Of a stretch of 27,897 nt of DNA, positions 19 to 12,970 are shown piece after piece. The translations under genes were made by a program, and so were the position numbers. How positions within the stretch are numbered: the first letter of the stretch is position 1; each line of letters begins with the position of its first letter. The DNA is from a virus. The DNA lies in the IMG/VR virus record IMGVR_UViG_3300027839_000058, positions 1-27,897 of that record. The stretch is one strand, 5' to 3'. The notes beneath the pieces are model-generated. The model saw nothing but the letters and a program-made list of their open reading frames with translations, was not told where the DNA came from and made no database searches.

Positions 19-20
19 AA

Positions 21-215: not shown

Positions 216-475
216 TGGAAGACAAGGAACAAACCATAATCTCCATAACGGATATCATAGAGCTAAAAGTCAAACGAGAGCTAGAACTCCAAGATTACGA
301 AAGGCAGCTGAATGAACTCCAAAAGAAAAAGTATTGGCTAGAAAAAGAAATACAGATGGCAACCTTCATCATCGCTGCAGTAAGAAAAGAAATCACCACA
401 AAAGACTTAGTAAAAGAAATAACAAAAGACCAAAGCCTACTCGACATATACTACCAAGAGGATAAAACAGAGTGA
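215..475 (+). CDS. Small coiled-coil protein, unknown function
   Basis: This 86-residue protein is almost entirely charged and helical. Residues about 10-50 (IIELKVKRELELQDYERQLN and onward) have the heptad-like spacing of a coiled coil, so it probably oligomerises or pairs with a partner. There is no signal peptide, membrane segment or catalytic motif. The start ATG overlaps the previous stop by one base (TAATG), and the stop overlaps the next start (GTGA at 472-475). The gene thus sits in a coupled series of small phage genes. Function unknown. The coding call rests on the coiled-coil pattern and both overlaps. Confidence 0.6.
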   Translation: MEDKEQTIISITDIIELKVKRELELQDYERQLNELQKKKYWLEKEIQMATFIIAAVRKEITTKDLVKEITKDQSLLDIYYQEDKTE

Positions 476-747
476 AATACCAATGGACATCTAAACTCAA
501 AAACGTCACCTATGATCCAACCTCCAAGGAGTATAGTTGGAGTGAAGAACAAACCGAAATCGAACCCTATCCTATATTAACAGATGACATCATCCAACAA
601 GGCAGACTCTATGAATTTACTACTAACCACAAAACTTTTCGAGTTCACCCGCATGATGCAAAGCATAATGCTGAAGTATCCGATGCTAATCGAGTTCACC
701 AACCGACACTTCATCCAAAAGACACCAACAAAAAAGAAAAAGAATAA
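472..747 (+). CDS. Hypothetical protein, GTG start; 3' half uncertain
   Basis: The GTG at 472 overlaps the preceding TGA (GTGA), and no better start is seen. The first 50 or so residues (MKYQWTSKLKNVTYDPTSKE and onward) look like a normal acidic folded protein. From about residue 55 the composition turns odd (many His, Asn and Asp). At the same place the +1 frame, open from 584 to 862, reads as a more natural sequence (LFEFTRMMQSIMLKYPMLIE). Either two genes overlap here, or the two frames are joined by a frameshift near the A4/T4 run CAAAACTTTT (630-639). Function unknown. Confidence 0.45.
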   Translation: MKYQWTSKLKNVTYDPTSKEYSWSEEQTEIEPYPILTDDIIQQGRLYEFTTNHKTFRVHPHDAKHNAEVSDANRVHQPTLHPKDTNKKEKE

Positions 748-754
748 AGCATCC

Positions 755-862
755 ATGTCCCCTGAGCTATGCGGTATTATTATCCTTATACTAGGACTGA
801 GTGCGATGATAGGTGCAATGCTTATAACAATTATGGTCTATGAATGGTTTCTTGACAAATAA
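755..862 (+). CDS. Small single-span membrane protein (alternative start at 584)
   Basis: From the ATG at 755 the product is 35 residues and is dominated by one hydrophobic helix of about 22 residues (GIIILILGLSAMIGAMLITI), ending MVYEWFLDK, so it should insert in the membrane. The same frame is open back to an ATG at 584, giving a 92-residue version with a basic linker (KTPTKKKKNK) before the helix. The longer form would overlap the 472-747 gene by 164 bases. No strong ribosome binding site marks either start. The stop (860-862) abuts the next ATG at 863. Function unknown. Confidence 0.4.
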   Translation: MSPELCGIIILILGLSAMIGAMLITIMVYEWFLDK

Positions 863-1054
863 ATGGTGCAGATGGTTATTCTAAATTATCAGGGAATTGA
901 ACCTACTGTCAGCTGGTCTGCATATGTTGATACCCCCGGTGCTACTAATAAACAAAAGATTTTCTTAGGTACATATAGCACCCTAGAAGAAGCAGTTGAT
1001 GCTAGAGATAATGCCGAAAAGAATATGTCCTCTTATGGTGACAGAGATTTATAA
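863..1054 (+). CDS. Small AP2-domain-like DNA-binding protein
   Basis: This 63-residue protein matches the core of the AP2/ERF-type DNA-binding fold. It has a three-strand part with Trp18 (WSAYVD) and Phe34-Leu-Gly-Thr-Tyr (FLGTYST), followed by the amphipathic helix LEEAVDARDNAEKN (41-54). The pattern W-x-A-x-V ... F-L-G-x-Y-x-T-x-E-E-A-x-x-A-R is the AP2 signature. In bacteria and phages AP2 domains occur in homing endonucleases and short stand-alone proteins. There is no nuclease domain here, so it is probably a free DNA-binding protein. The ATG at 863 directly follows the previous stop; an in-frame ATG at 872 is an alternative. The gene lies directly upstream of the candidate origin and promoter region, so a regulatory role is possible but unproven. 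Confidence 0.6.
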   Translation: MVQMVILNYQGIEPTVSWSAYVDTPGATNKQKIFLGTYSTLEEAVDARDNAEKNMSSYGDRDL

Positions 1055-1060
1055 TGACCC

Positions 1061-1091
1061 TGTGTATAAGTCTGTGCATAACTGTGTATAA
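1061..1091 (-). promoter_or_regulatory. Three tandem DnaA-box-like 9-mers
   Basis: TGTGTATAA (1061-1069), TGTGCATAA (1073-1081) and TGTGTATAA (1083-1091) are reverse complements of TTATACACA or TTATGCACA. All three fit the DnaA box consensus TTATNCACA. They share one orientation, with starts 12 and 10 bases apart, about one helical turn, so bound DnaA molecules would lie on the same face. They may recruit or titrate host DnaA. Confidence 0.5.
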
Positions 1092-1102
1092 CTTTCTCTG
1101 AG

Positions 1103-1121
1103 GGCGGAGCTTCAGCCCGCC
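1103..1121. repeat. GC-rich hairpin
   Basis: GGCGG, a bulged A and GC pair with GC and CCGCC around a TTCA loop. It stands out in AT-rich DNA. No T-run follows, so it is not a typical intrinsic terminator. It lies 11 bases after the DnaA-box-like cluster. Confidence 0.4.
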
Positions 1122-1172
1122 AGACAAGCTGTCGGGTCGCATAAAACCATCCTGAATGCTAATCATCCGCAT

Positions 1173-1212
1173 TAAGCAATAAACCGTTTTGTAAATGGTG
1201 TTTTATTGCTTA
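1173..1212. repeat. 11-bp perfect inverted repeat
   Basis: TAAGCAATAAA (1173-1183) is exactly complementary to TTTATTGCTTA (1202-1212), with an 18-base loop. The arms are AT-rich. In the candidate origin this could be a hairpin or cruciform, or a dimeric protein-binding site. It is not followed by a U-tract, so a terminator is unlikely. Confidence 0.5.
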
Positions 1213-1292
1213 TACAGACGAGAAACCGATAGAATATTACTATAACCCTCACGGTTTTGGTGATCCTTATCGCATATGTCCGACGATTTTTC

Positions 1293-1342
1293 AAGGGGTT
1301 TCGGAGAAAATTATTGCGTATATACATCTAAAACTCTGAAAT
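1293..1342 (+). promoter_or_regulatory. Possible weak promoter with upstream box
   Basis: AAGGGGTTTCGGAGAA (1293-1308) resembles the box found just upstream of the -35 at two other promoters (1935 and 4214). Five bases after it comes TTGCGT (1314-1319) and, 17 bases further, TGAAAT (1337-1342; 4 of 6 to TATAAT). The box is convincing, but the promoter core is weak. Confidence 0.25.
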
Positions 1343-1378
1343 AAACAATATTCTTCTAAAAATACCGTGAAATAGGGG

Positions 1379-1407
1379 TTGCAATTCCACTAGGAACCTT
1401 CTACCAT
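1379..1407 (+). promoter_or_regulatory. Sigma-70-type promoter core (TTGCAA-17-TACCAT)
   Basis: TTGCAA (1379-1384), a 17-base spacer and TACCAT (1402-1407). The core closely follows the promoter at 1953: same -35, same spacer end (AACCTTC) and the same GGATG after the -10. The -10 is poorer than TATAAT, and the upstream box is missing. Because the ATG at 1406 lies inside the -10, this promoter's transcript would begin downstream of it. Confidence 0.45.
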
Positions 1408-1441
1408 GGATGGTACAAATCAAGCTAATAGAGAGAAATCT

Positions 1442-1621
1442 GTGAAAACTAACGACCAACTGCTAGAAGAATACCTATCAAATGGGGGGGAAATTACTGT
1501 AGTTCCTGCAAAGAAAGTAGTACCCCATTCACATATCACCAAATCTCATAGGTTCGGCGGGAAATATACCAGATATAACATGGGAGGAAAGTATAGAGCA
1601 ATGGGGAGGAGAACCTCTTAA
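1442..1621 (+). CDS. Small basic hypothetical protein (GTG start proposed)
   Basis: The frame is open from an ATG at 1406, but that codon overlaps the -10 box of the 1379 promoter. The in-frame GTG at 1442 has a purine-rich AGAGAGA a few bases upstream and gives a 59-residue product beginning MKTNDQLLEEYL. The protein has an acidic N-terminal helix, a Val-rich strand (EITVVPAKKVV) and a basic Gly/Arg/Tyr-rich C-terminus (GGKYTRYNMGGKYRAMGRR), suggestive of nucleic acid binding. The stop is one base before the next ATG (1623). No family is recognised. If transcription starts further upstream, the 71-residue form from 1406 is possible. Confidence 0.5.
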   Translation: MKTNDQLLEEYLSNGGEITVVPAKKVVPHSHITKSHRFGGKYTRYNMGGKYRAMGRRTS

Positions 1622-1622
1622 T

Positions 1623-1817
1623 ATGTCAAATATTATAAACTTTCCTATAGTAGAACCTATAGCTGAACCTGAATATGATTGGGACGATTCGGAGCATATC
1701 ACTGGGGAGATGCTGTGTGAATTCCTCATAACTCATAATATCGAATGTGCTAGCGATCTCAAGGATTTCTCACATTTCGTGGCATATATCTGTAAAAACA
1801 CCCGTTTTGAAACCTAG
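1623..1817 (+). CDS. Small acidic hypothetical protein
   Basis: This 64-residue protein is preceded by a strong GGAGGAGA ribosome binding site (about 1605-1612), which fixes the start. The N-terminus (MSNIINFPIVEP) resembles other short phage proteins that open with a hydrophobic strand. It then has an acidic linker with a Trp (EYDWDDSE) and a compact helical C-terminal half (MLCEFLITHNIECASDLKDF) with three Cys in all. There is no membrane span. It forms one unit with the gene ending one base upstream and is the last gene before the promoter at 1953. Function unknown. Confidence 0.6.
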   Translation: MSNIINFPIVEPIAEPEYDWDDSEHITGEMLCEFLITHNIECASDLKDFSHFVAYICKNTRFET

Positions 1818-1840
1818 CTGACGACCCCCCTAGAGGACGA

Positions 1841-1853
1841 GTAAACCATTGAT
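1841..1853 (+). repeat. 13-mer repeat GTAAACCATTGAT, copy 1
   Basis: Exact copy of the 13-mer also found at 1918-1930 and, inverted, at 4135-4147. Each copy lies shortly upstream of a promoter, which suggests an operator or activator site. Confidence 0.45.
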
Positions 1854-1917
1854 ATCCCTAGAGATTCCCATAAGTATTTTGTACCCAGAAGTCACCAATT
1901 CGAGGTATTCCTGGGCT

Positions 1918-1930
1918 GTAAACCATTGAT
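1918..1930 (+). repeat. 13-mer repeat GTAAACCATTGAT, copy 2
   Basis: Exact copy of the 13-mer at 1841, ending 22 bases before the -35 of the 1953 promoter. The promoter at 4232 has a degenerate copy (GTAAGTGATTGAT, 4197-4209) at the same distance. Confidence 0.45.
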
Positions 1931-1934
1931 CCCT

Positions 1935-1981
1935 AAGGGTTTCGAGAATCACTTGCAATCCTAGTGAAAACCTTCTATAAT
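1935..1981 (+). promoter_or_regulatory. Promoter with upstream box (TTGCAA-17-TATAAT)
   Basis: The -35 is TTGCAA (1953-1958), the spacer is 17 bases and the -10 is a perfect TATAAT (1976-1981). AAGGGTTTCGAGAA (1935-1948) ends four bases before the -35. Positions 1915-2001 align without gaps to 4194-4280 with about 70% identity by hand count, including nearly all of the 20 bases after the -10. It should drive the small genes from 2083. The leader is about 95 bases long. Confidence 0.7.
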
Positions 1982-2082
1982 GGATGTATTGAAATTGAAA
2001 AGGGTTGATAGATTCCAACTGAATAGTCTGTAAGATAACTGGCACAACCCGAACATTACATAAAACTGAAAGGAAACAAAAT

Positions 2083-2325
2083 ATGAGCTTAACAATGTAC
2101 GGTGGTATTGATATGGCATTAATAGTCGAACATGGGGGAGAATTCGATAATCTGTTGGATGATGTAAATCCTAAGGTTCCCATGGGTGACTTTGCCTACG
2201 ATTATTCGCATTGTTACAAGTTGGTTGATCCAGTGGCATATGGCCTCTCATTTTATGATTGGTACTGCTGTAAGATGGAAGACCTTGCTGATTCTGGCGT
2301 GTCATGGGAGATCATGGGACGATGA
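2083..2325 (+). CDS. Small acidic hypothetical protein, paralogue of the next gene
   Basis: An 80-residue product; the ATG is preceded by AAGGAAAC (2070-2077). The C-terminal half has the pattern Y-x-Y-S-x-x-x-K-x-x-D-P-x-x-Y-x-x-x-F-x-x-W (residues about 40-61, YDYSHCYKLVDPVAYGLSFY). This recurs in the next gene (PYSYALKKMDPDYYRRAFHS), so the pair look like a tandem duplication. Similar short proteins with a YSY...DP..Y...F..W core occur in many phages, but their function is not known to me. It is the first gene after the promoter at 1953, and its stop overlaps the next start (ATGA). Confidence 0.65.
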   Translation: MSLTMYGGIDMALIVEHGGEFDNLLDDVNPKVPMGDFAYDYSHCYKLVDPVAYGLSFYDWYCCKMEDLADSGVSWEIMGR

Positions 2326-2519
2326 GCAAGGAAGATACAATACCGACTGGTTTTACGTTGGGTATCAGCGACTTCGATAACGAGCTAGATGATACCACAA
2401 GCGGTGTATACATTGGCGATATACTCTATCCATATAGCTATGCACTAAAGAAAATGGACCCGGATTACTATCGACGTGCTTTCCATAGCTGGGCCGAAAA
2501 TAAGGAGATACTGATATGA
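2322..2519 (+). CDS. Small hypothetical protein, paralogue of the previous gene
   Basis: The chosen start is the ATG at 2322, which overlaps the preceding TGA (ATGA) and gives 65 residues; an in-frame ATG at 2304 is less likely. GGGAG at 2306-2310 could serve as ribosome binding site. Residues about 35-60 repeat the YPYSYALKKMDPDYY...FHSWAENKE pattern of the preceding gene. The N-terminal part is acidic with a Gly-Asp turn (YIGDILYPYS). The stop overlaps the next start by four bases. Function unknown. Coupling to its paralogue suggests a shared role or a heteromer. Confidence 0.6.
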   Translation: MSKEDTIPTGFTLGISDFDNELDDTTSGVYIGDILYPYSYALKKMDPDYYRRAFHSWAENKEILI

Positions 2520-2791
2520 GCATGATGAAGCGTAAAGCATACGAAACCACCATGTTAAGCGGACTGTCCGAGGGTGGATGGCGTATACGTTACACCAAGG
2601 ACGGTAGCAGTGATGTGGCCTTCTTGGTCGAGCGCACGCTGCTTGGTGCTGTTGCTGTGTTCAACGCCCTTGACCGTACCTCGGGCTTCGACACCGATCT
2701 GACCATCGAGCGGGTGGGCACCTACGGTGACGTGACCAACACATGGGTCATGGCGGGCCGTTATGGCGTCCCGATGGAGGTGACCTCATGA
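2516..2791 (+). CDS. GC-rich hypothetical protein
   Basis: A 91-residue product with a good AGGAG (2503-2507) eight bases before the ATG, which overlaps the previous stop. The sequence reads as a soluble alpha/beta protein: strands around GGWRIRYTKDG and SDVAFLVERT, a helix LLGAVAVFNALDR, then DTDLTIERVGTYGD. Its base composition is unlike the neighbours. A hand count of 2641-2760 gives 75 G+C of 120, while a late gene stretch (15121-15180) gives 16 of 60. This points to recent acquisition from a GC-richer genome. The stop overlaps the next ATG (ATGA). No family is recognised. Confidence 0.6.
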   Translation: MSMMKRKAYETTMLSGLSEGGWRIRYTKDGSSDVAFLVERTLLGAVAVFNALDRTSGFDTDLTIERVGTYGDVTNTWVMAGRYGVPMEVTS

Positions 2792-2892
2792 AACAGGCAC
2801 TAAAGGGTTGGGCGTGGCTAGTGGCGCTGTGGACGCTTATCACGGTGAGCACGCTACAGGCCATAGGCGTTATAGGGTTCGTAGGTGCTTGA
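2788..2892 (+). CDS. 34-residue membrane peptide
   Basis: This short gene starts at an ATG overlapping the preceding TGA (ATGA, 2788-2791), with GGAGG at 2777-2781 as ribosome binding site. The product (MKQALKGWAWLVALWTLITV, then STLQAIGVIGFVGA) has a basic start and one continuous hydrophobic segment from about residue 9, so it is a single-span membrane peptide or an uncleaved signal-anchor. It shares the high GC of the upstream gene and probably came with it. Function unknown. Confidence 0.5.
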   Translation: MKQALKGWAWLVALWTLITVSTLQAIGVIGFVGA

Positions 2893-3064
2893 GTCACCAC
2901 GCATCGCTTTGATGGCCTCTGATACACATATAGGCCGTTTCAAGGGTTGGGGAGGAACAGCCGGAGTAAGGGGGGTGGCCGAAAGTGATCCATGTCATGT
3001 CAATGGTTATAGAAATACTCAAAAAATCCCGGGGACCTAAATCCCCTTTGAAAGGTAATTTAAT

Positions 3065-3448
3065 ATGAAACACACAACCCCATGGAGTGACCAAAAGATG
3101 AATCCTATTGATGTACAGGAACGCATTGATGGTTATGTTGATATGGTTCAGCATAAAATGAATGATTATTGGAATAGTATGAATTTCACTAATGATGGCC
3201 GTGATAATGAAGTACCTGTTATCGAAATTGAATATGGTAATAAGTATGCCCGTGTTATTCATCGTGATTACAGTGGTTTTCAACGGTCTGTCCATTCATT
3301 TGTTAATATGATAAATGGTGACATACTCAAAGCAGGTGGTTGGAAAGCGCCTGCACCTAATGGTGTTCGTGGTAACATTTTTACTGATGATTTTGGTGCT
3401 AGTGTAGTAAACAATTATGGTGCAAGTTATTTGAAAGGACCGAGGTGA
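3065..3448 (+). CDS. Conserved-looking phage protein of unknown function
   Basis: A 127-residue product; GAAAGG (3050-3055) lies about nine bases before the ATG. The N-terminal half is helical and charged. Residues about 55-100 (VIEIEYGNKYARVIHRDYSG, then RSVHSFVNMINGDILKAGGW, KAPAPNGVRGNIF) carry a pattern seen in many small phage proteins: an I-x-x-G-x-K-Y-x-R-V strand, S-V-x-x-F-V, and NGDILKAxxWKxPAxxxRGNIF. I know it only as a hypothetical family. It is separated from the GC-rich pair by 172 bases in which I see two weak inverted repeats (2914-2936, 3031-3046) and no clear promoter. It starts the run of four genes to 4095. Confidence 0.7.
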   Translation: MKHTTPWSDQKMNPIDVQERIDGYVDMVQHKMNDYWNSMNFTNDGRDNEVPVIEIEYGNKYARVIHRDYSGFQRSVHSFVNMINGDILKAGGWKAPAPNGVRGNIFTDDFGASVVNNYGASYLKGPR

Positions 3449-3455
3449 TAATAAT

Positions 3456-3644
3456 ATGGAATTTGCAGAATTTGTAGTTAATGATATGTACAAGGATCTT
3501 CATGGATCTCGGCCTAATAAAGAGTGGTGGAAAGAAACATGGAAAGCGGCTTCTGATGAGGGTCAGAATAGAATATACAATGAGCTTCTAACGGCTCTAA
3601 CAGCTAAGAGGGTAGCAGAGTTATGGGGAGGTACTAAAAAATGA
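3456..3644 (+). CDS. Small phage protein with LHGxRP motif
   Basis: A 62-residue product, seven bases after the previous stop; AGGACCGAGG (3437-3446) lies shortly upstream of the ATG. The sequence FVVNDMYKDLHGSRPNKEWW has the MYKDLHGxRP core found in many short phage hypothetical proteins, followed by two helices (WKAASDEGQNRIYNELLTAL). It has no membrane segment and no catalytic motif. Its stop overlaps the next start (ATGA at 3641). Function unknown, but the recurrent motif makes the coding call fairly secure. Confidence 0.65.
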   Translation: MEFAEFVVNDMYKDLHGSRPNKEWWKETWKAASDEGQNRIYNELLTALTAKRVAELWGGTKK

Positions 3645-3883
3645 CTGTATGGACAAAACAATGGATATTAGATAGTCAGATAGGTACAAAGGTGACTGAT
3701 TTAGTGGATCCTCTGGATGTACAGTATGATAGGTTAGGTAGGCCTTATATCTACTCGGAAGAAAAGGGTTATCAGTCTACTATCACATATTGTAATTTTG
3801 AGAAGTATGATGGTGGTTATATGACTCAGTATGGTTCTGGAGATAGTGCTTATTGGGTGATTGATAGAGGGCCGGTAGAATGA
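3641..3883 (+). CDS. Hypothetical protein
   Basis: An 80-residue acidic, Tyr-rich soluble protein, coupled at both ends by four-base overlaps (ATGA at 3641 and 3880), with GGGAGG (3627-3632) upstream of the start. No known domain is recognised. Residues 1-45 (MTVWTKQWILDSQIGTKVTD and onward) suggest mixed alpha/beta, and the remainder is Gly/Tyr-rich. Its position directly before a SWIM-finger gene in a coupled series suggests the two are made together. Confidence 0.6.
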   Translation: MTVWTKQWILDSQIGTKVTDLVDPLDVQYDRLGRPYIYSEEKGYQSTITYCNFEKYDGGYMTQYGSGDSAYWVIDRGPVE

Positions 3884-4095
3884 CTGCAGCAGAGCTTAGA
3901 GAATGGGCTAACAGACGGGTAAAAGAGGATATGGCTAATCGTAATAGTTCATATAATGCAGTTCCTATTACTCGCAAGATTAAAGGTAGTTCTGGTAATT
4001 CTTATACCTTAACTACCTTTGGTAATGGTACTCGGACTTGTTCTTGTCCTGGGTTTCTTTATCGTCGGAAATGCAAGCATCTCTCCACTCCCTAA
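3880..4095 (+). CDS. Small SWIM zinc-finger protein
   Basis: A 71-residue protein ending in a SWIM-type zinc finger. Cys54-x-Cys56, then Cys65-x-His67, give CxCx8CxH, the exact SWIM ligand pattern, preceded by the typical strand YTLTTFGNGTRTCSCPGF. The N-terminus is a short charged helix (ELREWANRRVKEDMANR). SWIM fingers bind DNA or protein and are usually domains of larger proteins (MuDR transposases, SWI2/SNF2 ATPases); here the finger is nearly the whole protein. It starts at an ATGA overlap with the previous gene and is the last gene before the 4232 promoter. A transcription-regulating or DNA-binding role is plausible but not shown. Confidence 0.7.
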   Translation: MTAAELREWANRRVKEDMANRNSSYNAVPITRKIKGSSGNSYTLTTFGNGTRTCSCPGFLYRRKCKHLSTP

Positions 4096-4110
4096 GGATT
4101 TGGAGAATAA

Positions 4111-4176
4111 ATGGTGTTTTTTTTCTTGTTATTAATCAATGGTTTACATAGGTTTTTTGGGGTATTGGGAGTTTGA
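4111..4176 (+). CDS. Possible 21-residue hydrophobic leader peptide
   Basis: GGAG (4102-4105) stands five bases before an ATG that opens 21 codons (MVFFFLLLINGLHRFFGVLGV) in the otherwise empty gap between the SWIM gene and the AAA+ operon. The product would be a very hydrophobic peptide. The run of eight Ts encoding Phe may be just AT-rich DNA. It overlaps the inverted copy of the 13-mer repeat. The ribosome binding site is good, but nothing else supports it. Confidence 0.25.
   Translation: MVFFFLLLINGLHRFFGVLGV
4135..4147 (-). repeat. 13-mer repeat GTAAACCATTGAT, inverted copy
   Basis: ATCAATGGTTTAC on the + strand is the exact reverse complement of the 13-mer at 1841 and 1918. It lies 84 bases upstream of the -35 of the 4232 promoter. 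Confidence 0.45.
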
Positions 4177-4213
4177 AATATTGGTATTTTGGTGTTGTAA
4201 GTGATTGATTTAT

Positions 4214-4260
4214 AAGGGTTTTGAAAAACATTTGACATACCTTGTGGAACCGTGTATAAT
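4214..4260 (+). promoter_or_regulatory. Full-consensus sigma-70 promoter with upstream box
   Basis: TTGACA (4232-4237), a spacer of exactly 17 bases and TATAAT (4255-4260). AAGGGTTTTGAAAA (4214-4227) ends four bases before the -35, as at the 1953 promoter. The -10 lies 26 bases before the ATG of the AAA+ gene. This should be the strongest host-polymerase promoter in the window. Expression is therefore likely early unless a repressor uses the shared upstream sequences. Confidence 0.8.
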
Positions 4261-4286
4261 GGATGTACTGAAATTGAGAAATATTG

Positions 4287-5480
4287 ATGAAAAAAGTGAT
4301 TAAAATGTCTGCCAAACGGGTTGCCCTAGTAAGTGCCGTTCGTGCCGCATATGGTGAAGAGGCCTCTGTAGTGACCCGTAAGGAATTGCAGGCCATTGTG
4401 GATGTAGAGCCTAGGGTACATTCTTGGCCTACTTGGTTGGTGAATAATGATGATTTGCGATTGGATCGTGGGTTGTATGTTTTGCCGCAAGATAATGGCT
4501 CTTATGATGATGGTTCAAAAGAGGTTTCGGTTAGTGAGATGATTACCCCTGAGGCCAGTTCTTTGGCTACTGTTTCTTTGGCCACTAATGTTGAGGTCCA
4601 AGATGAGCAGGATTCTTATGTCCCAGCCAAATACTCTGGTTATGTTCCTTTTGGTAATTTTAGTACTGTCCGTGACGTTTTGAAGTCTGGTACCTTTTAC
4701 CCGATGTTTATTACTGGGTTGTCTGGTAACGGTAAAACACTCATGGTTCAGGAGACTTGTGCCCGACTAAAGCGTGAATATGTCAGAGCCAATGTCACAA
4801 TTGAGACTGATGAGGACGACCTAATCGGTGGTTTTCGTTTGCTTAATGGTGAGACAGTCTGGCATGATGGTCCTGTGATTACTGCCATGAAGCGTGGTGC
4901 CGTGTTATTGTTGGATGAGATTGATTTAGCCTCTAATAAGATTATGTGCTTACAGCCCATTCTTGAAGGCTCATCGATATATATTAAAAAGATTGGCAAA
5001 TGGGTTCATCCTGTTCCGGGTTTCACTGTTATTGCTACTGCTAATACAAAAGGTCAAGGATCTGATGATGGACGCTTTATTGGTACTAACGTATTAAATG
5101 AGGCCTTTCTAGAGCGTTTTCCTATTACCCTTGAGCAGTCTTATCCAGGCACCAAGATGGAAGAGAAGATTCTCACCAACGAGTTTGCAAAATCTGATAA
5201 AACAGAGCCAGAGTTGGTTGTCAATCTAGTTCGTTGGGCCGATGTTATTCGTAAGACGTTTTCCGAAGGCGGCTGTGATGAAATTATCTCAACCCGTCGT
5301 TTGGTACACATTGTAAATGCCTATAATATCTTTGAAGACAAAATGAAGGCCATTCAGTTGACGGTTAATCGTTTTGATGATGAGACCAAGGAATCGTTTC
5401 TTGATTTATTCACCAAGATTGATGCTGGCGTCGAAATTGAAGAAAATGTCGAAACAGACGAAGAGGAATTTGATGTATGA
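4287..5480 (+). CDS. MoxR/CobS-like AAA+ ATPase
   Basis: A 397-residue AAA+ ATPase; numbering here is from a TTG one codon before the chosen ATG. Walker A is GLSGNGKT (145-152), Walker B is LLLDEID (208-214), sensor 1 lies at TANTKG (252-257), and LERFP (276-280) precedes the usual arginine region. The N-terminal 110 residues form a separate, possibly winged-helix-like domain (TRKELQAIVDVEPRVHSWPT) with an acidic linker. The ATPase resembles CobS/MoxR proteins, ring-shaped remodellers that act with VWA-domain partners. Exactly such a partner follows, overlapping by four bases (ATGA at 5477). GAGAA (4276-4280) precedes the ATG. The promoter at 4232 drives it. Cobalamin synthesis is unlikely, as no other cob genes are present; an energy source for the VWA/peptidase partner is more likely. 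Confidence 0.85.
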   Translation: MKKVIKMSAKRVALVSAVRAAYGEEASVVTRKELQAIVDVEPRVHSWPTWLVNNDDLRLDRGLYVLPQDNGSYDDGSKEVSVSEMITPEASSLATVSLATNVEVQDEQDSYVPAKYSGYVPFGNFSTVRDVLKSGTFYPMFITGLSGNGKTLMVQETCARLKREYVRANVTIETDEDDLIGGFRLLNGETVWHDGPVITAMKRGAVLLLDEIDLASNKIMCLQPILEGSSIYIKKIGKWVHPVPGFTVIATANTKGQGSDDGRFIGTNVLNEAFLERFPITLEQSYPGTKMEEKILTNEFAKSDKTEPELVVNLVRWADVIRKTFSEGGCDEIISTRRLVHIVNAYNIFEDKMKAIQLTVNRFDDETKESFLDLFTKIDAGVEIEENVETDEEEFDV

Positions 5481-7687
5481 GCGATTCTGTAAAAAGTGAC
5501 CGTATTGCCAAGTTATTGGCTACTGAGGATGTAACGGTTCGTCATTCTGTGACGGCCAAAACGGCATCCTTTGATACCAAAAGCCGTGTACTCACTTTAC
5601 CCGTGTATTTGGTCAAGAATGATAATGTCCATGATATGATGACTGGCCATGAAGTCGGTCATGCCTTGTGGACTAAGCCACTTGACTGGATGACGGCCTT
5701 GACTAATGATTATAATAAAGACATTCTCAATATAGTTGAGGATGCCCGTATTGAGAAAAAAATCAAGGTGCGTTATCCGGGTATTGTTCGTAATTTCATC
5801 GAAGGCTATAATATTCTTGCTGGTAATAAATTCTTTTATGATGATGAATCACAAATTCTCGATATGCAGTTTATTGACCGCATGAATTTGTATTTCAAGT
5901 TGGGCCTATCGGCAAAAGTGAAATTTAATGCCGAAGAACAAGAATTAGTCGAAATGGTGGCTGATTGTAATTCTTGGAAAGAAGTTTTAGCCGCAACCCG
6001 AGCAATTATGGAATTTACGGCTCAGGAAATGCGAGATGAGGAAGGCGAGGAAGGCGACGTTCAAGAATTTGATCAATTTGGCGAATCCAACGAGTTAGAA
6101 GCTGATGTTAGCAAAATGTCTAATAAGGAACTTTCGGATGAGCTCGATTCTCAAAATATGAAGTCAGAAACTCAGGAAAAGTTTGATGAAAACGCTGAGA
6201 AAATGACAGAAGGTGAGAAAAATGAATTACGGGATAGTCGAAATTATAGCGAACCGTTGTATGGTCGTTTGCCGAAAGCGAATTTGAACACGGTTGTGAT
6301 TCCTTACAAAAAGGTTATCGACCAACTTGCTATAGATATTGATTACAGCAAAAGATACGCCATTCTTGATTCTGACCCCAATGGAATTGAAAAACACTTT
6401 TACGCTTCGATGGAAGGCGATTATGTTACTTTTGACACTATCGAAAGTCGATATAAAACCTTCCGAACGAAAACAGCGAAAATCGTCAACTATATGGTCA
6501 AAGAATTTGAACGTAAAAAGGCAGCTGCTGAATATCGCAAGGAACATATTTCTAAGACGGGCGTGCTTGATGTGAATAAGTTATTTTCATACAAGTATAA
6601 CGAGGATGTATTTTTAAAGAATATCATCAAGCCCGATGGCAAGAATCACGGTATGGTTTTCTTACTTGATTGGTCCAATTCAATGACTGGCCATTTAGGG
6701 GCCACGGTGAATCAACTGTTGTCCTTGATATGGTTCTGTAAAAAGATAAACGTGCCGTTTGAAGTTTATGCCTTTACGAATGGTTGGAAAAGTGAGCGTT
6801 TTAGCGAAATGAGTATTGCAGAGATGGAACTGGAAGCTAATGAAAGATTCAGTTCCAACATAGGAGAAATTCAGCACGCCAATCACACCTGTTTCAATCT
6901 GATGCAGTTGTTTAGCACCAAGATGAATGCTTCTGACTTGAATAAAATGTGCAAGATGATTTACACATTCGCTCACGCATACCAAGGTATGAGGAATCCT
7001 GATTCTAAGTTTGGTATGGGTTCTACTCCTCTTGTCGAGGGGCTATCTTGTCTGACTGAAATTATCCCGATGCTCAAGAATAACTATAACTTGGATATCG
7101 TCAACCTGTTTGTGCTGACTGACGGTGATGGTAACTCACACTTTTCAACAGTGTTAGAAGCTGGAGGTCGTGCAGGTATCGGACCGAATCTAATAGTTGA
7201 GAATCCTGTCACTAAGAAATCTTATAACACAGGTGAACTGGGACGGTCATTGAGAAATCAAGGTTCATACCACTATAACAACCAGTGGATAAAGTTGAAA
7301 GGTCAAGAGTATGCTGTGCTGAACATCATCAAGGAAACACCGGGCGTCAATATGGTCGGCCTCTTCCTAGACGGTAGTAGTATGAACGGTCGATACAATA
7401 AGCATGTACATGACAAGTTTATGCAGACTCGTATGTGGAGCGAAATGAAACGCAAGCATATTGAGCAACGTAAATATATGAAGAAGTGTGGCTTTACATC
7501 TCACAAGTGGATGGCATACGATGCTTTCTACATTATCCCGGCAGCCACTATCCGGGACACTAGTGAAGAACTTGAGATTACTAGTGACATGAAAGCTGGG
7601 CAGATGAAAAGAATCTTCGGACAACACCAGAAGAAAAAGTGGAATTCAAGAGTATTTGTTAATCGTTTAATGGAGATAATATGTTAA
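5477..7687 (+). CDS. HExxH metallopeptidase-like and VWA-domain protein (CobT-like)
   Basis: A 736-residue protein with two recognisable parts. The N-terminal domain has HEVGH (58-62), a zinc-metallopeptidase HExxH, followed by NIVEDARIE (85-93), whose Glu88 is a likely third ligand. An acidic, coiled region follows (about 185-250). The C-terminal VWA domain has a complete MIDAS: DWSNS (398-402), Thr517 in GSTPL, and TDGD (548-551). CobT and other VWA proteins paired with MoxR-type ATPases share this architecture, and fusions with a metallopeptidase domain (DUF2201-like) are known. It is translationally coupled to the AAA+ gene, so the two probably form one complex in which ATP hydrolysis remodels a target gripped by the VWA domain, perhaps with proteolysis. 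The target is unknown. Its stop overlaps the next start by seven bases. Confidence 0.85.
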   Translation: MSDSVKSDRIAKLLATEDVTVRHSVTAKTASFDTKSRVLTLPVYLVKNDNVHDMMTGHEVGHALWTKPLDWMTALTNDYNKDILNIVEDARIEKKIKVRYPGIVRNFIEGYNILAGNKFFYDDESQILDMQFIDRMNLYFKLGLSAKVKFNAEEQELVEMVADCNSWKEVLAATRAIMEFTAQEMRDEEGEEGDVQEFDQFGESNELEADVSKMSNKELSDELDSQNMKSETQEKFDENAEKMTEGEKNELRDSRNYSEPLYGRLPKANLNTVVIPYKKVIDQLAIDIDYSKRYAILDSDPNGIEKHFYASMEGDYVTFDTIESRYKTFRTKTAKIVNYMVKEFERKKAAAEYRKEHISKTGVLDVNKLFSYKYNEDVFLKNIIKPDGKNHGMVFLLDWSNSMTGHLGATVNQLLSLIWFCKKINVPFEVYAFTNGWKSERFSEMSIAEMELEANERFSSNIGEIQHANHTCFNLMQLFSTKMNASDLNKMCKMIYTFAHAYQGMRNPDSKFGMGSTPLVEGLSCLTEIIPMLKNNYNLDIVNLFVLTDGDGNSHFSTVLEAGGRAGIGPNLIVENPVTKKSYNTGELGRSLRNQGSYHYNNQWIKLKGQEYAVLNIIKETPGVNMVGLFLDGSSMNGRYNKHVHDKFMQTRMWSEMKRKHIEQRKYMKKCGFTSHKWMAYDAFYIIPAATIRDTSEELEITSDMKAGQMKRIFGQHQKKKWNSRVFVNRLMEIIC

Positions 7688-7911
7688 TATTCGACCAAGT
7701 TTTAGGATGGATTAAAAAATTGACAGAAGCCGGTGTGTCTTTATTGGCATTAATTATTGTCGCACAAATCATTTTTGGTAAGGCAGTTCCTTTTACTGGT
7801 GTAGATGTTATTGGTAACATTACAGCAATCGTTGGAACTCTTGGCGCACAGGGACTGATTGGTTTAGCATCAGTTGCTGTTATCTATGCCATCTTTACTA
7901 GAAGCAAATGA
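7681..7911 (+). CDS. Small two-span membrane protein
   Basis: A 76-residue protein with two hydrophobic segments (about 18-33, GVSLLALIIVAQIIFG; and about 41-71, VIGNITAIVGTLGAQGLIGLA and onward), a short amphipathic N-terminus (FDQVLGWIKKLTEAG) and a basic tail (TRSK). It could be a hairpin in the inner membrane. The ATG at 7681 overlaps the VWA gene stop by seven bases, and the next gene overlaps by four, so it belongs to the same unit. Its size and topology would allow a holin, but no lysin gene is nearby, and it may instead anchor the AAA+/VWA complex. The function is open. Confidence 0.65.
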   Translation: MLIFDQVLGWIKKLTEAGVSLLALIIVAQIIFGKAVPFTGVDVIGNITAIVGTLGAQGLIGLASVAVIYAIFTRSK

Positions 7912-8126
7912 TAACTTACGGTAAAGCAGTCGCCCCTCAGGAGAATCCTGTGGGACATGATTCTGAAAATGATAAATTCTGGAGAGAAGTAAAATCTAAA
8001 GATGGTAGGGTGGGTGTTGCGCCTAGGGCAAAACAATATAAAAGTCAGCATACAATAGCACCCGCATACAATAAGGGTGCCTATCAAGTTATACCCCTTA
8101 AAGAAATTAAGGATATAGGCCGATGA
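7908..8126 (+). CDS. Hypothetical protein in the AAA+/VWA operon
   Basis: A 72-residue soluble, basic, Pro/Gly-containing protein (MITYGKAVAPQENPVGHDSE and onward), with little predicted structure apart from a C-terminal strand (AYQVIPLKEIKDIG). Both ends overlap neighbours by four bases (ATGA at 7908 and 8123). No family, membrane span or catalytic motif is recognised. It is inferred to be co-expressed with the membrane protein before it and the oxygenase after it. Confidence 0.6.
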   Translation: MITYGKAVAPQENPVGHDSENDKFWREVKSKDGRVGVAPRAKQYKSQHTIAPAYNKGAYQVIPLKEIKDIGR

Positions 8127-8767
8127 AATTAACAAATGAATGGTATTATTTTATAGATGCTATTACTCCAGAGAAGTGTGATGAGATTATAGAATTAGGA
8201 CACCAATTAAAATTTACAGAAGGTAAAGCAGGTACTAATTCAGATGAATTGACAGCCGAAGAAAGAAAAACTGGAAGAAAAGATATCCACGGTAAATCGC
8301 CATTTAGAAATAGTAATATAGCCTTTGCGGATAACCAAGATTTGTATGATTTAGTTTTTCCATTTATGCGGCATGCCAATCAAGAGGCTGGTTGGGGTTT
8401 TGATATGAATAATTGTGAAACTCCCCAAATAACAGAGTATAAAAAAGGACAATTTTATAATTGGCATAATGATGGTATCAGTGATAGATTATCGATGTAT
8501 ACCAAAGAAGAAGTTGGTGATAATGAATTGATGTTAGGAAATGTGAGAAAATTGAGTATGACTATATTACTTAATGATGATTATAAGGGAGGACAATTCC
8601 AATTCCGAAGTTTTTCTCAAGGTAAACCCACCGTTATAAATCCTTCCATTAAAAGTAAAGGTAGTATAGTTATATTTCCCTCCAGTATGGTGCATAGAGT
8701 TACCCCTGTAACAAAGGGTGTTAGATATTCTGTGGTGGTTTGGTTTCTTGGCCCACCCTTTAAATAA
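8123..8767 (+). CDS. 2-oxoglutarate/Fe(II)-dependent oxygenase (prolyl-hydroxylase type)
   Basis: A 214-residue protein of the 2OG-Fe(II) oxygenase superfamily, P4H/PKHD (PiuC-like) type. Iron ligands are His115 and Asp117 in NWHNDG and His191 in SSMVHRVTPV; Arg201 in KGVRYSVVVWF is the expected 2-oxoglutarate-binding residue. The core strands LSMTILLND and GSIVIFPSS match the double-stranded beta-helix. Such enzymes hydroxylate amino acids or other substrates using O2 and 2-oxoglutarate, and they are frequent in T4-like aquatic phages, where substrates are mostly unknown. It begins at an ATGA overlap and is the last gene before the terminator at 8784. The substrate could be a protein of this operon or a virion protein; neither is shown. 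Confidence 0.85.
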   Translation: MKLTNEWYYFIDAITPEKCDEIIELGHQLKFTEGKAGTNSDELTAEERKTGRKDIHGKSPFRNSNIAFADNQDLYDLVFPFMRHANQEAGWGFDMNNCETPQITEYKKGQFYNWHNDGISDRLSMYTKEEVGDNELMLGNVRKLSMTILLNDDYKGGQFQFRSFSQGKPTVINPSIKSKGSIVIFPSSMVHRVTPVTKGVRYSVVVWFLGPPFK

Positions 8768-8783
8768 TAATCCAGTTGTTTTG

Positions 8784-8806
8784 AACCCCCGAAAGGGGGT
8801 TTTTTA
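8784..8806 (+). terminator. Rho-independent terminator
   Basis: AACCCCC (8784-8790), loop GAAA (8791-8794) and GGGGGTT (8795-8801), running into a T tract to 8806. This is a perfect stem with a GNRA-type loop and U-tail, 16 bases after the oxygenase stop. It closes the 4232 transcription unit and separates it from the late structural genes. Confidence 0.9.
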
Positions 8807-8820
8807 TTGCCTAAAATCCA

Positions 8821-8828
8821 GATAAATA
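8821..8828 (+). promoter_or_regulatory. T4-late-type promoter (GATAAATA)
   Basis: GATAAATA differs at one base from the T4 late -10 TATAAATA, which is read by a phage sigma (gp55 in T4) without a -35. It lies 15 bases after the terminator and 47 bases before the gp5 start, where a late promoter is expected. The same octamer recurs at 13363. Confidence 0.5.
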
Positions 8829-8875
8829 GGTGGGTGAATATAAAAAATAGAACAATAGACCCGGAGAAATAAGTA

Positions 8876-11800
8876 ATGGCTTTCTTTGGGCAAGACGGCT
8901 TTGAGTTCGGCATAGGTGTAGTAGAAGATAGATTTGATCCCTTACAACTTGGACGAGTTAGAGTAAGGTGGCTGGGTCTACATGATGAAGATAAAGATAA
9001 AATTCTGACAAAGGACTTACCTTGGTCAGAAGTTATGCAATCTGCTCACGGAAATCCTGCAGCTGGCGTAGGACAAAATTCTACCTTAACAGAAGGTAGT
9101 TGGGTGTGTGGGTTTACAAAGGATCCCAGTACCCTACAAGATTGGATTATAATGGGTACATTGCCTGGTTGGAATGTCACTACTGCTATAGGTAGTGGCG
9201 TTGCTGGGGGAAAATGGGCCGAATATAGAGGTCCTTATAAAGAATTCACAACTAAACCAGGAACGGTGTCTAGTAGTTCAGATATTAAATCTTTTGATTA
9301 TGAGAAAGGGTTTGCTGATCCTACAGTAGACCAACGAAATATTCCTCATCCTCCGAGTTATGTTTCTTGGAGAAGTCCTGTATCCGTGCCGGCAGCTACT
9401 TATGTAAAGGTAGATTGGACAAAGGAAGGTAGTTCTAGTGTTACTGATGGTTGGCCACAAGTTCCAGATGAGAATAATGATTTTACTTATGTAAATGATA
9501 TAGGATCTCCAGCATGGGTATATCCAACTACACCTTCAACAGCACAAACAAGAGCCACTCATTCTGATACACTACACGCTTTATTTGGAACGACACGACG
9601 AATAACTGCTGATAAACGATTCGCTAACAGTTGGACACATTTTGGTACATTTAAATGGCCAGATGTAAGGACTTATTCACAAGCGGGTAATGATACTGCT
9701 CCTAAGGAACAAGAAACTGGGAGAAATGTTGAGAGTCCTGATACCCTTTATAAAACAGGTCGAGACGGTGTTATATTTTCAACTGGGTATTTAGAACCCA
9801 ATTTTACGGCTGTAGATTCAAGTGGTGCACCTGTTCTTCCCTTATTTCCCGTAATGCGGGATTTACCCGCCGTCTCTTTTGATCCTACTGCTTACACTGG
9901 TATTACAAATACAGATACTCGATTTACAGCAGGATCGTCTGGATATGAAGTAGGAGATTGGGCTAGTACGCAAGAAGATTTTAGATTACCCAATCCCAGG
10001 GTCAATTGGTTATCTAAAGGTAGTTTAAGTCCCACAGAAAGAAAAACTGTTATGGATTTATTTGATAGTGGACAATATGGTAGTGGTGTTTATAATATTA
10101 ATAGTCCTAAACTGGGTAGACATGATATAGAATGGAAAGATGTATCAGAAAACGATTTAGTTATAGTTCCTAAACCAGATACTAATCCCTTAGCAATGGG
10201 TGGCATTCCTATTTCTGGTATAGATAATACATTTTTAAAGGTCACAACTCAATCAAAATTGTGGGGAGATACATCTTATTTTGCAACTGCTGAGAGAAGT
10301 ACTGGAAATCCTGCCATACCAACATTACAAGCTGGTGATATAGTTCAACTTGCTGGTGTTAGGGGTATGCAGGAAGTAAATGGTAGAATTTTTAGATGTA
10401 TGAGTTGTTCTGAGAGCGATGGTACCTTTACAATGGAATTGGGAACAGTTAATGGTAGCGTTTGGGCTGGACCTGCTCCTATTTCATGGAAAACGGGTGG
10501 TACAGGTTTGGGTACTGCTACGATTTCTGACCAATTTGTGGCAACTTCAAGTTTTTCAGCTTATTTGGAAGGAGGGGTTGTTATACCCCACCATCCACAT
10601 TGGTCTTTATGTTGGAAAGCAGATCAACGAGAACGACAAATTAATATTGGTTCACCTAATGCCGTAACAGGTATAGAATACGGTCATTGGAACCAACCAT
10701 CAGGTGACTTTAATGCCAGATACCCATTTAACCATGTATATGAATCTGAATCTGGTCATCTTATGGAGTACGATGATACTCCGGGTGGGGAACGCATCCA
10801 ACAAATGCATCGTTCCGGAACTTACTATGAAATAGACCATAACGGTACAAAAGTAGATTATGTCAAGGGTGACAACTACGACATACGCATACATGATGAT
10901 TATATGTATGTTAAGGGTAAAGTAGCACACACCTTTGATGACGAGGTGATGATACGATACAATGACCGTGCTGACATCTCTGCTAAGTGGAAACTACAAC
11001 TGTGGTCTGGTGGTGACTTAGAGATAACATCCAAACGAAACATCAACCTCAAATCTGATGGTGATATCAATATGCAGGCTGGTGGTCATATCAATATGAA
11101 TGCCACTGGTTTAACTCCTACATCTTCAGAAAATAAGGCGGGAAGTAGAAATCCCAATGAACGATCCAAGATACGGATGAAAGCTGGTCATTTAGAAGTG
11201 GAAATGATAGGTAATGAAACTCTACAAAATGAATATGGTATTACTTTACAGTCAAATCAAAGTGGTATTATGATAAAGACTCTACTAGGATATGGTTTAG
11301 TCGATAATGAGAGAACAATGAGTGGTGATATTAATATTGCCTCAGCAGCAGATATGAATTTATATGCTTATGATAATCATTATAGAGAAGCATCGCTTGG
11401 TAACATAGAAGATTTTGCACAAGTTGATTCTTACTTAACCGCAGAAACTGGAAGTATTTACGAAACAGCTCAAGCTGAGAGTATATATTATACTGCTAAA
11501 AAGGCTATTGATATAAAGGCATGTGGTATTGATGGGGTAAGTGCAGGAACTGTTGATATTTGGGCAAAAGAATCTATTAATATCAAAGCTGATAGTTCGG
11601 CAGATACAGCTTTAACTAATACTGGGTTAATAAACATACAAGCAATAGGTAGAACTGATGTGGCTGTTCCTGCCGGCACTACAGGACATATAAGTATTGT
11701 GGCACCTAGATATATTCAAACATTCTCTGGTAATGTTTCCGTAGATGCTGCTTATAATATTAATATGAAAGCCGGTACTGCAGCTGCCAGTGCTGGTACG

Positions 11801-12487
11801 ATTAATTTAGAAACACAATCTGGTGTGGGCTTTGGTTCCGACATTAATATAAAATCTAATGCAGGGTTTTCTATGGAATCAGCCAATAATGCAAATATAC
11901 TTGTTACTGGTGCTTCCCAGATGGTTAAAATGACTACAAGCCATGCATTGGGAACGATTCATATGAATAGTTCTGGTGAGGCTGCGGCTTCTGCTGGTTC
12001 TGCCACTGTTACACCTACCACCGCGGCAGCAACAGCAACTAGCGCTAGTGGCGCAATGCGTTCCTATATACCTAATAGTTTAGAATTGTTGTCTATAGAT
12101 TTGCCTGAACCTCGACCTGCTATGGGAACTAGTATTACTATGTTGGCCCTAAATGCTAATTTAGCAAATGGATATGGAGGAGAGAACATTCGCAACCTCC
12201 AAGACACTATTGCTGATATGCAATCAGGTGTAAGTGCATATTGGACTAAAGAAGGAGTTGCAACAAGTGCTGGCGGCCGTACTTATGTTACTGACCAAAA
12301 TAACTATGATTGGGATACATTAATGACAGATAGCACTACCACGACAACAGAAGCGCCATGGACGGGGTATACAGAAGAATATAAGAAAGTAGAACCATTA
12401 GGTAATACTGATAACACTGGTAAACGAAATAATCCATCTACAAGAGCCACAGGTGATGTGGTAACAGATACAAAATCACCATGTTAG
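8876..12487 (+). CDS. 5: Baseplate central hub/spike protein, gp5-like
   Basis: A 1203-residue protein. The N-terminal 100 or so residues are the gp5/VgrG OB-fold (GIGVVEDRFDPLQLGRVRVR WLG, then LPWSEVMQSAHG and SWVCGF). Around residues 655-745 the repeats of the triple-stranded beta-helix needle begin (VKGDNYDIRIHDDYMYVKG, then INLKSDGDINMQAGGHINMN) and continue irregularly to about 1040. An Ala/Thr/Ser-rich linker (about 1040-1060) and a less structured tail follow. The trimer should form the membrane-piercing needle under the tail tube. The protein is about twice as long as T4 gp5 (575), with a long insert (about 120-640) in place of the lysozyme domain; no lysozyme active-site pattern was seen. 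CGGAGA lies before the ATG. The PAAR tip gene follows two genes on. Confidence 0.9.
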   Translation: MAFFGQDGFEFGIGVVEDRFDPLQLGRVRVRWLGLHDEDKDKILTKDLPWSEVMQSAHGNPAAGVGQNSTLTEGSWVCGFTKDPSTLQDWIIMGTLPGWNVTTAIGSGVAGGKWAEYRGPYKEFTTKPGTVSSSSDIKSFDYEKGFADPTVDQRNIPHPPSYVSWRSPVSVPAATYVKVDWTKEGSSSVTDGWPQVPDENNDFTYVNDIGSPAWVYPTTPSTAQTRATHSDTLHALFGTTRRITADKRFANSWTHFGTFKWPDVRTYSQAGNDTAPKEQETGRNVESPDTLYKTGRDGVIFSTGYLEPNFTAVDSSGAPVLPLFPVMRDLPAVSFDPTAYTGITNTDTRFTAGSSGYEVGDWASTQEDFRLPNPRVNWLSKGSLSPTERKTVMDLFDSGQYGSGVYNINSPKLGRHDIEWKDVSENDLVIVPKPDTNPLAMGGIPISGIDNTFLKVTTQSKLWGDTSYFATAERSTGNPAIPTLQAGDIVQLAGVRGMQEVNGRIFRCMSCSESDGTFTMELGTVNGSVWAGPAPISWKTGGTGLGTATISDQFVATSSFSAYLEGGVVIPHHPHWSLCWKADQRERQINIGSPNAVTGIEYGHWNQPSGDFNARYPFNHVYESESGHLMEYDDTPGGERIQQMHRSGTYYEIDHNGTKVDYVKGDNYDIRIHDDYMYVKGKVAHTFDDEVMIRYNDRADISAKWKLQLWSGGDLEITSKRNINLKSDGDINMQAGGHINMNATGLTPTSSENKAGSRNPNERSKIRMKAGHLEVEMIGNETLQNEYGITLQSNQSGIMIKTLLGYGLVDNERTMSGDINIASAADMNLYAYDNHYREASLGNIEDFAQVDSYLTAETGSIYETAQAESIYYTAKKAIDIKACGIDGVSAGTVDIWAKESINIKADSSADTALTNTGLINIQAIGRTDVAVPAGTTGHISIVAPRYIQTFSGNVSVDAAYNINMKAGTAAASAGTINLETQSGVGFGSDINIKSNAGFSMESANNANILVTGASQMVKMTTSHALGTIHMNSSGEAAASAGSATVTPTTAAATATSASGAMRSYIPNSLELLSIDLPEPRPAMGTSITMLALNANLANGYGGENIRNLQDTIADMQSGVSAYWTKEGVATSAGGRTYVTDQNNYDWDTLMTDSTTTTTEAPWTGYTEEYKKVEPLGNTDNTGKRNNPSTRATGDVVTDTKSPC

Positions 12488-12501
12488 GAGAATATGTAAT
12501 A

Positions 12502-12690
12502 ATGGTTGCTGGAGAATTGATAACATATACAGATTACGATGATATTCCCGATACGTTTGAGCACGTGATTAAATTTATACCAGATTGGCCTGAGGAGCCT
12601 CATACACAAGAGGATCACAATCTTATGGCAGTCTTTAATGATAAACTACAAGTGTTAATGGAGATAGAAAGAAATGCCAGCAGTAACTAG
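12502..12690 (+). CDS. Small conserved protein between hub and PAAR genes
   Basis: The ATG at 12502 (62 residues) is chosen because AGGAG (12486-12490) precedes it. An in-frame ATG at 12481 (69 residues) overlaps the gp5 stop but has no ribosome binding site. The core FEHVIKFIPDWPEEPHTQED, then HNLMAVFNDKLQVLMEIER, matches a small acidic protein I know from other T4-like aquatic phages at about this position (pattern HVI-F-PD--PHT-E-H). Its function is unknown; it may be a chaperone or a minor hub component. It overlaps the PAAR gene by 17 bases. Confidence 0.65.
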   Translation: MVAGELITYTDYDDIPDTFEHVIKFIPDWPEEPHTQEDHNLMAVFNDKLQVLMEIERNASSN

Positions 12691-12970
12691 ATTTGGTGAT
12701 GCCGATGTAACACATTGTACCGGCATGACAAGATTAGATAAGAGTTCAAATGTGTTTGCAAATAATATTGGTATATCTAGACAAGATGATAATAATACTG
12801 CTCATTTATTGCCACCAGATGTTCCTCCATGCCCAGGTCATTCAGCACCGATTACTACTGGTAGCACGACGGTGTTTGTAAATAATAAAGGATGCGGTAG
12901 AGTGGGGGATGCGATTACTGGATGTACCTCAGTAGCCGCTGGTTCTAGCAGTGTGTTTGCTGGGCCTTAA
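12674..12970 (+). CDS. PAAR-domain spike-tip protein (gp5.4-like)
   Basis: A 98-residue PAAR protein: N-terminal PAVTRFGDADVTHC, then three repeats with the PAAR rhythm (SSNVFANNIGISRQDD, STTVFVNNKGCGRVGD, SSSVFAGP). His14, His44, Cys53 and Cys84 are candidate ligands for the structural metal. PAAR proteins form a cone that caps and sharpens the gp5/VgrG needle (T4 gp5.4). The full length is close to that of a bare PAAR domain, so there is no extra effector. It starts inside the previous gene, with GGAGATAGAAAG upstream of the ATG. Confidence 0.88.
   Translation: MPAVTRFGDADVTHCTGMTRLDKSSNVFANNIGISRQDDNNTAHLLPPDVPPCPGHSAPITTGSTTVFVNNKGCGRVGDAITGCTSVAAGSSSVFAGP

Follow-up and report, generated by a model that had tools for sequence, protein, structure and literature searches.

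A MoxR-type AAA+ ATPase and a VWA partner with a zinc-peptidase motif: a candidate remodelling metallopeptidase pair of T4-like phages

The window, a 27.9-kb IMG/VR virus fragment from a marine phage, contains five tandem genes that lie, with their promoter and terminator, on the + strand. A sigma-70-type promoter, TTGACA-N17-TATAAT, is found at 4232-4260 with a 17-base spacer and a consensus score of 12/12. It is the sole 12/12 site on either strand of the window, where 0.05 would be expected per window from dinucleotide-preserving shuffles. The ORF list places the genes at 4287-5480, 5477-7687, 7681-7911, 7908-8126 and 8123-8767, with overlaps of 4, 7, 4 and 4 bases at the successive junctions; we took the ATG at 4287 as the start of the ATPase gene, one codon downstream of the TTG at which the mechanical list begins. 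An intrinsic terminator follows at 8783-8802, with a stem of eight pairs, five of them G-C, and a T-rich tail. It is the first in the ranked terminator list for positions 1-14000, its sequence is unchanged in 5/5 close relatives, and it stands between the five-gene unit and gp5. The original prediction of a full-consensus promoter, five genes overlapping by 4 to 7 bases and an intrinsic terminator is therefore borne out, and so are the gene identities that it proposed (AAA_5, E 1e-19; 2OG-FeII_Oxy_3, E 1.4e-15; HExxH and MIDAS in the large protein). Relative to the related contig L008, dN/dS is ~0.21 for the AAA gene, ~0.13 for the large protein, ~0.14 for the 72-aa gene and ~0.51 for the oxygenase, the 76-aa gene being left out because its copies are all identical. 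All four genes are under purifying selection, with a clear signal in the ATPase, peptidase and 72-aa genes and a weaker one in the oxygenase gene.

T4-like baseplate genes lie downstream of the unit. The product of gp5 (8876-12487) is a gp5-like hub of 1203 aa that matches Gp5_OB and DUF2345, while a lysozyme domain was not found in the Pfam search. The ORFs at 12674-12970 and 13377-13841 we take to be PAAR-like and gp25-like, respectively, and the gene at 13841-15742 is gp6-like, its identity confirmed by sequence matches. By gp6, the closest cultured phages are the Pelagibacter phages Mosig and HTVC008M (51-52%) and the Methylophilales phage Melnitz (48%). Melnitz is thus near the Pelagibacter phages, yet it is missing among the hosts listed in the peptidase search; apparently its peptidase gene was lost or has diverged beyond detection. 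A small protein encoded between PAAR and gp25 (12994-13230) has a hydrophobic span, a run of five to seven His and a tail rich in Asn and Lys. All ~20 relatives found in the window's clade keep the His run, and counterparts of the protein are encoded at L010:15049-15276, L088:10410-10691 and L112:18077-18352. Just 5' of the promoter, positions 3880-4095 encode a 71-aa protein with a SWIM-like CxC...CxH pattern. In several relatives, its homologues (30-54%; L010:9252-9500, L012:1888-2208 and L112:9239-9496) are encoded next to the ATPase gene or the peptidase gene. A tRNA scan and an Rfam scan of the window gave no match.

The gene at 4287-5480 encodes a MoxR/AAA_5 ATPase, the 'CobS' of T4-like phages (phrog_249, E 2.9e-117), which scores 71.4 bits against PF07728 (AAA_5; cut-off 22). 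Walker A, GLSGNGKT (4716-4739), and Walker B, LLLDEID (4905-4925), consist of residues that are invariant in the alignments. The family phrog_249 is that of the cyanophage CobS and is annotated as 'porphyrin biosynthesis'. Against the CobS equivalog model TIGR01650, the protein reaches 69 bits, below the cut-off of 558.55. Its nearest solved relatives in the PDB are midasin, CobS (9ujv, E 2.6e-22) and NorQ (9qh4). In a tree whose deep branches are weak, the T4-like ATPases are placed apart from canonical CobS. The Staphylococcus Kayvirus ATPase forms a very long branch in the tree, and its locus showed no VWA partner next to it.

The large protein encoded at 5477-7687, the 'peptidase' or CobT of T4-like phages, belongs to phrog_459 (E 6.5e-162), a family present in 463 phage records. 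Single-sequence and profile searches returned no useful solved structure for it. The AlphaFold2 model of the full chain has a pLDDT of 80.8 and a pTM of 0.76. Its N-terminal domain (aa 1-192, 5477-6052) is zincin-like and carries an HEVGH zinc-peptidase motif at aa 58-62 (5648-5662), in which H58, E59 and H62 are identical in 103/103 T4-like relatives. A second motif, N-IV-ED-A-R-I-E (aa 85-93, 5729-5755), is similarly conserved: N85, E88, D89 and R91 are kept in 102-103 of the 103 relatives and E93 in 100, and all five are invariant in alignment A1. E88 is the probable third zinc ligand. The protein therefore has the HExxH and the conserved downstream acidic residue of a zincin. Modelled alone (198 aa), the N-domain has a pLDDT of 90.0, and its structural neighbours are almost all zinc metallopeptidases, with Z-scores that are only modest: ZMPSTE24 7.0, BepA 6.5, ArdC 6.2, BlaR1 6.0, proabylysin 5.9, PprI 5.8 and Spartan 4.9. 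Because HExxH enzymes are the neighbours that the motif leads one to expect, the agreement fits despite the modest Z.

The C-terminal VWA domain (aa 389-736, 6641-7684) was recognised from its fold match and its MIDAS, which is made up of D398-S400-S402 (6668-6682), T517 (7025-7027) and D549 (7121-7123). Across the 103 T4-like relatives, D398, S400, S402 and D549 never differ, and T517 is kept in 102. The best fold matches of the domain are the midasin MIDAS domain (8ql1, Z 15.7) and the NorD VWA domain bound to NorQ (9qh6, Z 15.6). As the ATPase is nearest to midasin, CobS and NorQ, both halves of the pair indicate the same AAA/VWA couples. With its Walker A and B motifs intact and a neighbouring VWA protein that has a complete MIDAS, the ATPase fits a MoxR AAA+/VWA couple.

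Downstream of the pair, a 76-aa protein with two hydrophobic stretches (7681-7911) occurs only in the identical contigs L006, L007 and L160 and had no significant family match in profile searches. The 72-aa protein (7908-8126) has a C-terminal motif as in phrog_4593 (E 0.0012), and the last gene (8123-8767) encodes a 2OG-Fe(II) oxygenase with H115-x-D117...H191 (PF13640, 58.4 bits against a cut-off of 27; phrog_61, E 6e-39). PADLOC gave no match for the pair and matched the oxygenase only to a generic 2OG model, so a defence system was rejected. The original prediction had treated all five genes as one machine, in a combination not known as a described system, and had asked whether the last three genes travel with the pair. 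To compare gene content, we used 40 other contigs of the clade, leaving out the near-identical L006-L009. The membrane gene is present in 0/40 and the oxygenase in 1/40, there with 29% identity and at a different location. Only the 72-aa gene recurs (19/40), at varying positions and at times directly 5' of the ATPase gene. Differences are also seen close to the window: L008 and L009, whose CobT is 96% identical to the window's, show a clean absence of the membrane gene, and in L008 another small gene abuts the ATPase start where the promoter would be expected, the promoter itself being absent. The predicted machine therefore holds as a MoxR couple with a metallopeptidase motif but, by the refuting test set with the prediction itself, not as a conserved five-gene unit, and its core is known from T4-like cyanophages and other tailed viruses. 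We do not count the 76-aa, 72-aa and oxygenase genes as parts of the machine but regard them as co-transcribed neighbours, mostly local passengers; of their three products, only the 72-aa protein is a candidate accessory. As a unit, the five genes are the outcome of ordinary gene shuffling at the locus.

The pair itself is already described and is not new. A published study names it the viral cobST cluster, places it in the cyanophage core genome and considers cobT 'mistakenly annotated as a peptidase' (PMC8651126). Both families are widespread in T4-like cyanophages and also occur in Pelagibacter, Stenotrophomonas and Ochrobactrum phages. At 107 loci, four reference phages included, the pair lies within the replication cluster (gp46/gp47/gp45). 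At 50 other loci, on 44 contigs, the pair, or the ATPase alone on short contigs, lies upstream of baseplate genes (gp5 or gp25). No contig has both contexts, and the proteins from the baseplate-side loci group as a single clade (support 100/100). The peptidase gene precedes the ATPase gene in 101/101 replication-side loci and in 29 of the 36 baseplate-side loci that have both genes. The order in the window, ATPase first, is seen in the remaining 7/36 and in 0/101 replication-side loci; the seven are the close relatives L006-L009 and L011, plus L014/L095 (one contig). In the window's clade, which is uncultured, the pair has moved to the front of the baseplate genes, away from the replication cluster.

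The company kept by the pair elsewhere is that of DNA replication or recombination in 10 of 11 carrier types, which are examples picked from hit lists. In T4-like phages it lies among gp46/gp47 and gp45/gp44, in Vibrio phage ICP2 it adjoins primase, helicase and polymerase genes, and in Pseudomonas phage Nican01 its neighbours are DNA ligase and PolIII alpha. Phage-plasmids have dnaE beside the pair, the IncC plasmid has ssb-bet-exo beside the VWA-protein locus, and Gordonia phage Hanem has primase/DnaB. The neighbours in the Halomonas element are presumably RecT/exonuclease-like, as we read them from the ORFs. The eleventh type, a Staphylococcus phage, is uninformative. Although drawn from hit lists, and with the window's clade breaking the pattern, these examples suggest that the pair acts at replicating or recombining DNA. 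We also observed that an HExxH-VWA protein is encoded close to DUF3150, or to a protein resembling DUF3150, in the IncC plasmid (L226:6935-14864), the Halomonas element (L223:1228-7773) and plasmid pT75-VIM (L224:3527-7701). Genes of the bet/exo recombination type are near it in the first two, and the annotation of the IncC and pT75-VIM stretches includes an AAA ATPase. The Methylomicrobium genome (L232, L233; the same genome as L218) has two copies of the HExxH-VWA protein.

Because the pair carries cobalamin names, we compared the large protein with canonical CobT, represented by Rhodobacteraceae only (PF06213 with E down to 1e-99 in 13/13 genomes). Nine reading frames had a legible MIDAS and were used, and three others were set aside because their longest frame was wrong. 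HExxH is absent from 9/9 of these cobalamin proteins. It is kept in the VWA proteins of the IncC plasmid, the Vibrio hepatarius and Halomonas elements, Methylomicrobium, an E. coli phage-plasmid, plasmid pT75-VIM, Gordonia phage Hanem and Vibrio phage ICP2. Among nine such mobile-element proteins, with 21-56% identity to the first sequence, the residues H, E, H, T, N, D, I and E are invariant. The T4-like profile matches the mobile-element set over both domains with a probability of 99.7% (E 2.9e-25); against canonical CobT the probability is 4.9%, a comparison of limited power given nine close Rhodobacteraceae sequences. PF06213 matches 8/56 T4-like members, at best with E 0.0036, and 6/9 mobile-element members. 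Neither CobT family of Pfam (PF06213, PF11775) matches the window's large protein, and PF06213 is also unmatched in the window's own record. By these profile matches, remote homology of the large protein family to CobT is real. The proteins are most simply read as one superfamily, with the protease site retained by the mobile-element members and missing from cobalamin CobT. Our literature search found no paper naming CobT together with HExxH. Since the zinc-peptidase motif is invariant here and absent from canonical CobT, we favour an ATP-driven remodelling metallopeptidase over a cobalamin enzyme.

We think it reasonably probable that the core of the locus is a two-gene ATP-driven machine composed of the MoxR-type AAA+ ATPase and its zincin/MIDAS-VWA partner; its ring, plug, proteolysis and substrate we infer. 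In NorQD, a finger of the VWA domain sits in the ring as a plug, and an acidic patch is held by the MIDAS (PMC9976466); by analogy, the phage pair would likely also act by ring, plug and pull. The ATPase would assemble as a hexameric ring and the VWA domain would plug into it, with the MIDAS metal gripping an acidic site on the target protein. ATP hydrolysis would pull the target open, and the zinc site of the zincin domain could then clip or trim what is exposed. In most carriers, the target would probably be a phage or host protein of DNA replication or recombination, while in the window's clade a role in virion assembly may also be considered. HExxH is missing in some relatives, Pseudomonas phage Nican01 and pDD520, so proteolysis is not required in every carrier. 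We found no usable data in the cyanophage and pelagiphage literature on the timing of cobS or peptidase expression or on presence in the virion.

The pair could instead be a non-proteolytic activase that remodels a target for metal insertion or inhibitor release, with HExxH only binding or handing over metal. Most known AAA/VWA couples are chaperones (PMC7159879), and the closest solved couples are NorQD and midasin. However, metal binding alone would not need the catalytic-type E59 to be as invariant as both histidines, as it is in 103/103 relatives, and we find this reading unlikely. The position of the window's pair raises the possibility of a chaperone for virion or tail assembly, comparable to p618/p892 of Acidianus two-tailed virus (ATV), that serves the baseplate encoded downstream. 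At all 50 clade loci, gp5 or gp25 lies downstream of the pair or of its ATPase, and the clade is a single, fully supported branch; ATV offers a precedent, a viral MoxR/VWA pair in tail development (PMC4124505). Such a role is nevertheless unlikely, as the family sits among gp46/gp47/gp45, away from tail genes, in 107/107 replication-side loci, and the terminator separates the unit from gp5.

A viral cobaltochelatase is the published reading (PMC8651126; PMC2984593): CobS and CobT would join host CobN, insert cobalt and raise the supply of cobalamin, for example for ribonucleotide reductase. The ATPase is indeed akin to CobS and the large protein remotely akin to CobT, and CobN is present in various bacteria and archaea, such as Synechococcus elongatus; among the window's genes, the window being a fragment, no ORF has the length and identity of CobN. 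The invariant zinc-peptidase motif that canonical CobT lacks argues against this reading, as do the CobS equivalog score far under the cut-off, the missing CobT Pfam match, the place of the T4-like ATPases in the tree (weak as its deep branches are) and the kindred pairs amid replication genes on IncC plasmids and phage-plasmids. Pelagibacter phages, moreover, have the pair, though to our knowledge SAR11 is generally thought unable to make cobalamin. SAR11 is also without MetH and MetE, according to one paper. Taken together, we find a cobaltochelatase quite unlikely. That all five genes of the unit, ATPase, peptidase, membrane protein, 72-aa protein and oxygenase, cooperate as a new system is highly improbable. 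Its overlapping genes, single promoter and single terminator are what one would expect of such a system, but L008 lacks the promoter and the membrane gene, and the clade counts of the membrane gene and the oxygenase led us to reject it.

The metallopeptidase reading bears on a widely repeated label. The gene cobS, reported from >90% of T4-like cyanophages, is as a matter of routine listed among the auxiliary metabolic genes for vitamin B12 (PMC10665884). If its partner is an active metallopeptidase, much of the 'cobalamin metabolism' annotation in viruses is mistaken, and a gene pair that ranks among the most abundant in marine viruses becomes an unexplained AAA+ protease. The main value of our analysis lies in this re-reading of the 'cobalamin' label on a near-universal marine phage gene pair.

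The pair shares features with several known systems. Midasin (Rea1/Mdn1) has the closest AAA sequence and the closest VWA/MIDAS fold, but it is a single giant multi-AAA chain that acts on ribosomes, and we know of no peptidase domain in it. The NorQ/NorD and CbbQ/CbbO activases likewise combine a MoxR ATPase with a VWA partner that has a MIDAS; the window's N-domain differs from them in being zincin-like, and NorD-type and CbbO-type controls have no HExxH. Aerobic cobaltochelatase CobS/CobT has a related ATPase, a VWA partner and a remote similarity to the CobT profile, whereas the window's proteins fail the curated cut-offs and the large one has the HExxH. ATV p618/p892, likened here by description, are also a virus-encoded MoxR ATPase and an interacting VWA protein, but of an archaeal virus and, in the portion of the source available, with no peptidase reported (PMC4124505). 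The VWA proteins of IncC and integrative elements (phrog_1576-like, some beside DUF3150) share HExxH, N..ED.RIE and MIDAS with the large protein, at ~17% identity and in other gene company. It is possible, and we propose it only tentatively, that these proteins, the T4-like pair and the phage-plasmid pairs make up one mobile-element family of ATP-dependent AAA+/MIDAS/zincin metalloproteases that release or process proteins on DNA undergoing replication or recombination, with cobalamin CobT as a branch minus the protease site. Lastly, the CobS-peptidase pair of T4-like cyanophages and pelagiphages (phrog_249/phrog_459) is of the same families at near full length, with adjacent genes (a 4-base overlap here) and the same motifs. 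It usually has the peptidase first and lies between gp46 and gp45, whereas the window has the ATPase first, upstream of gp5 and with extra co-transcribed genes.
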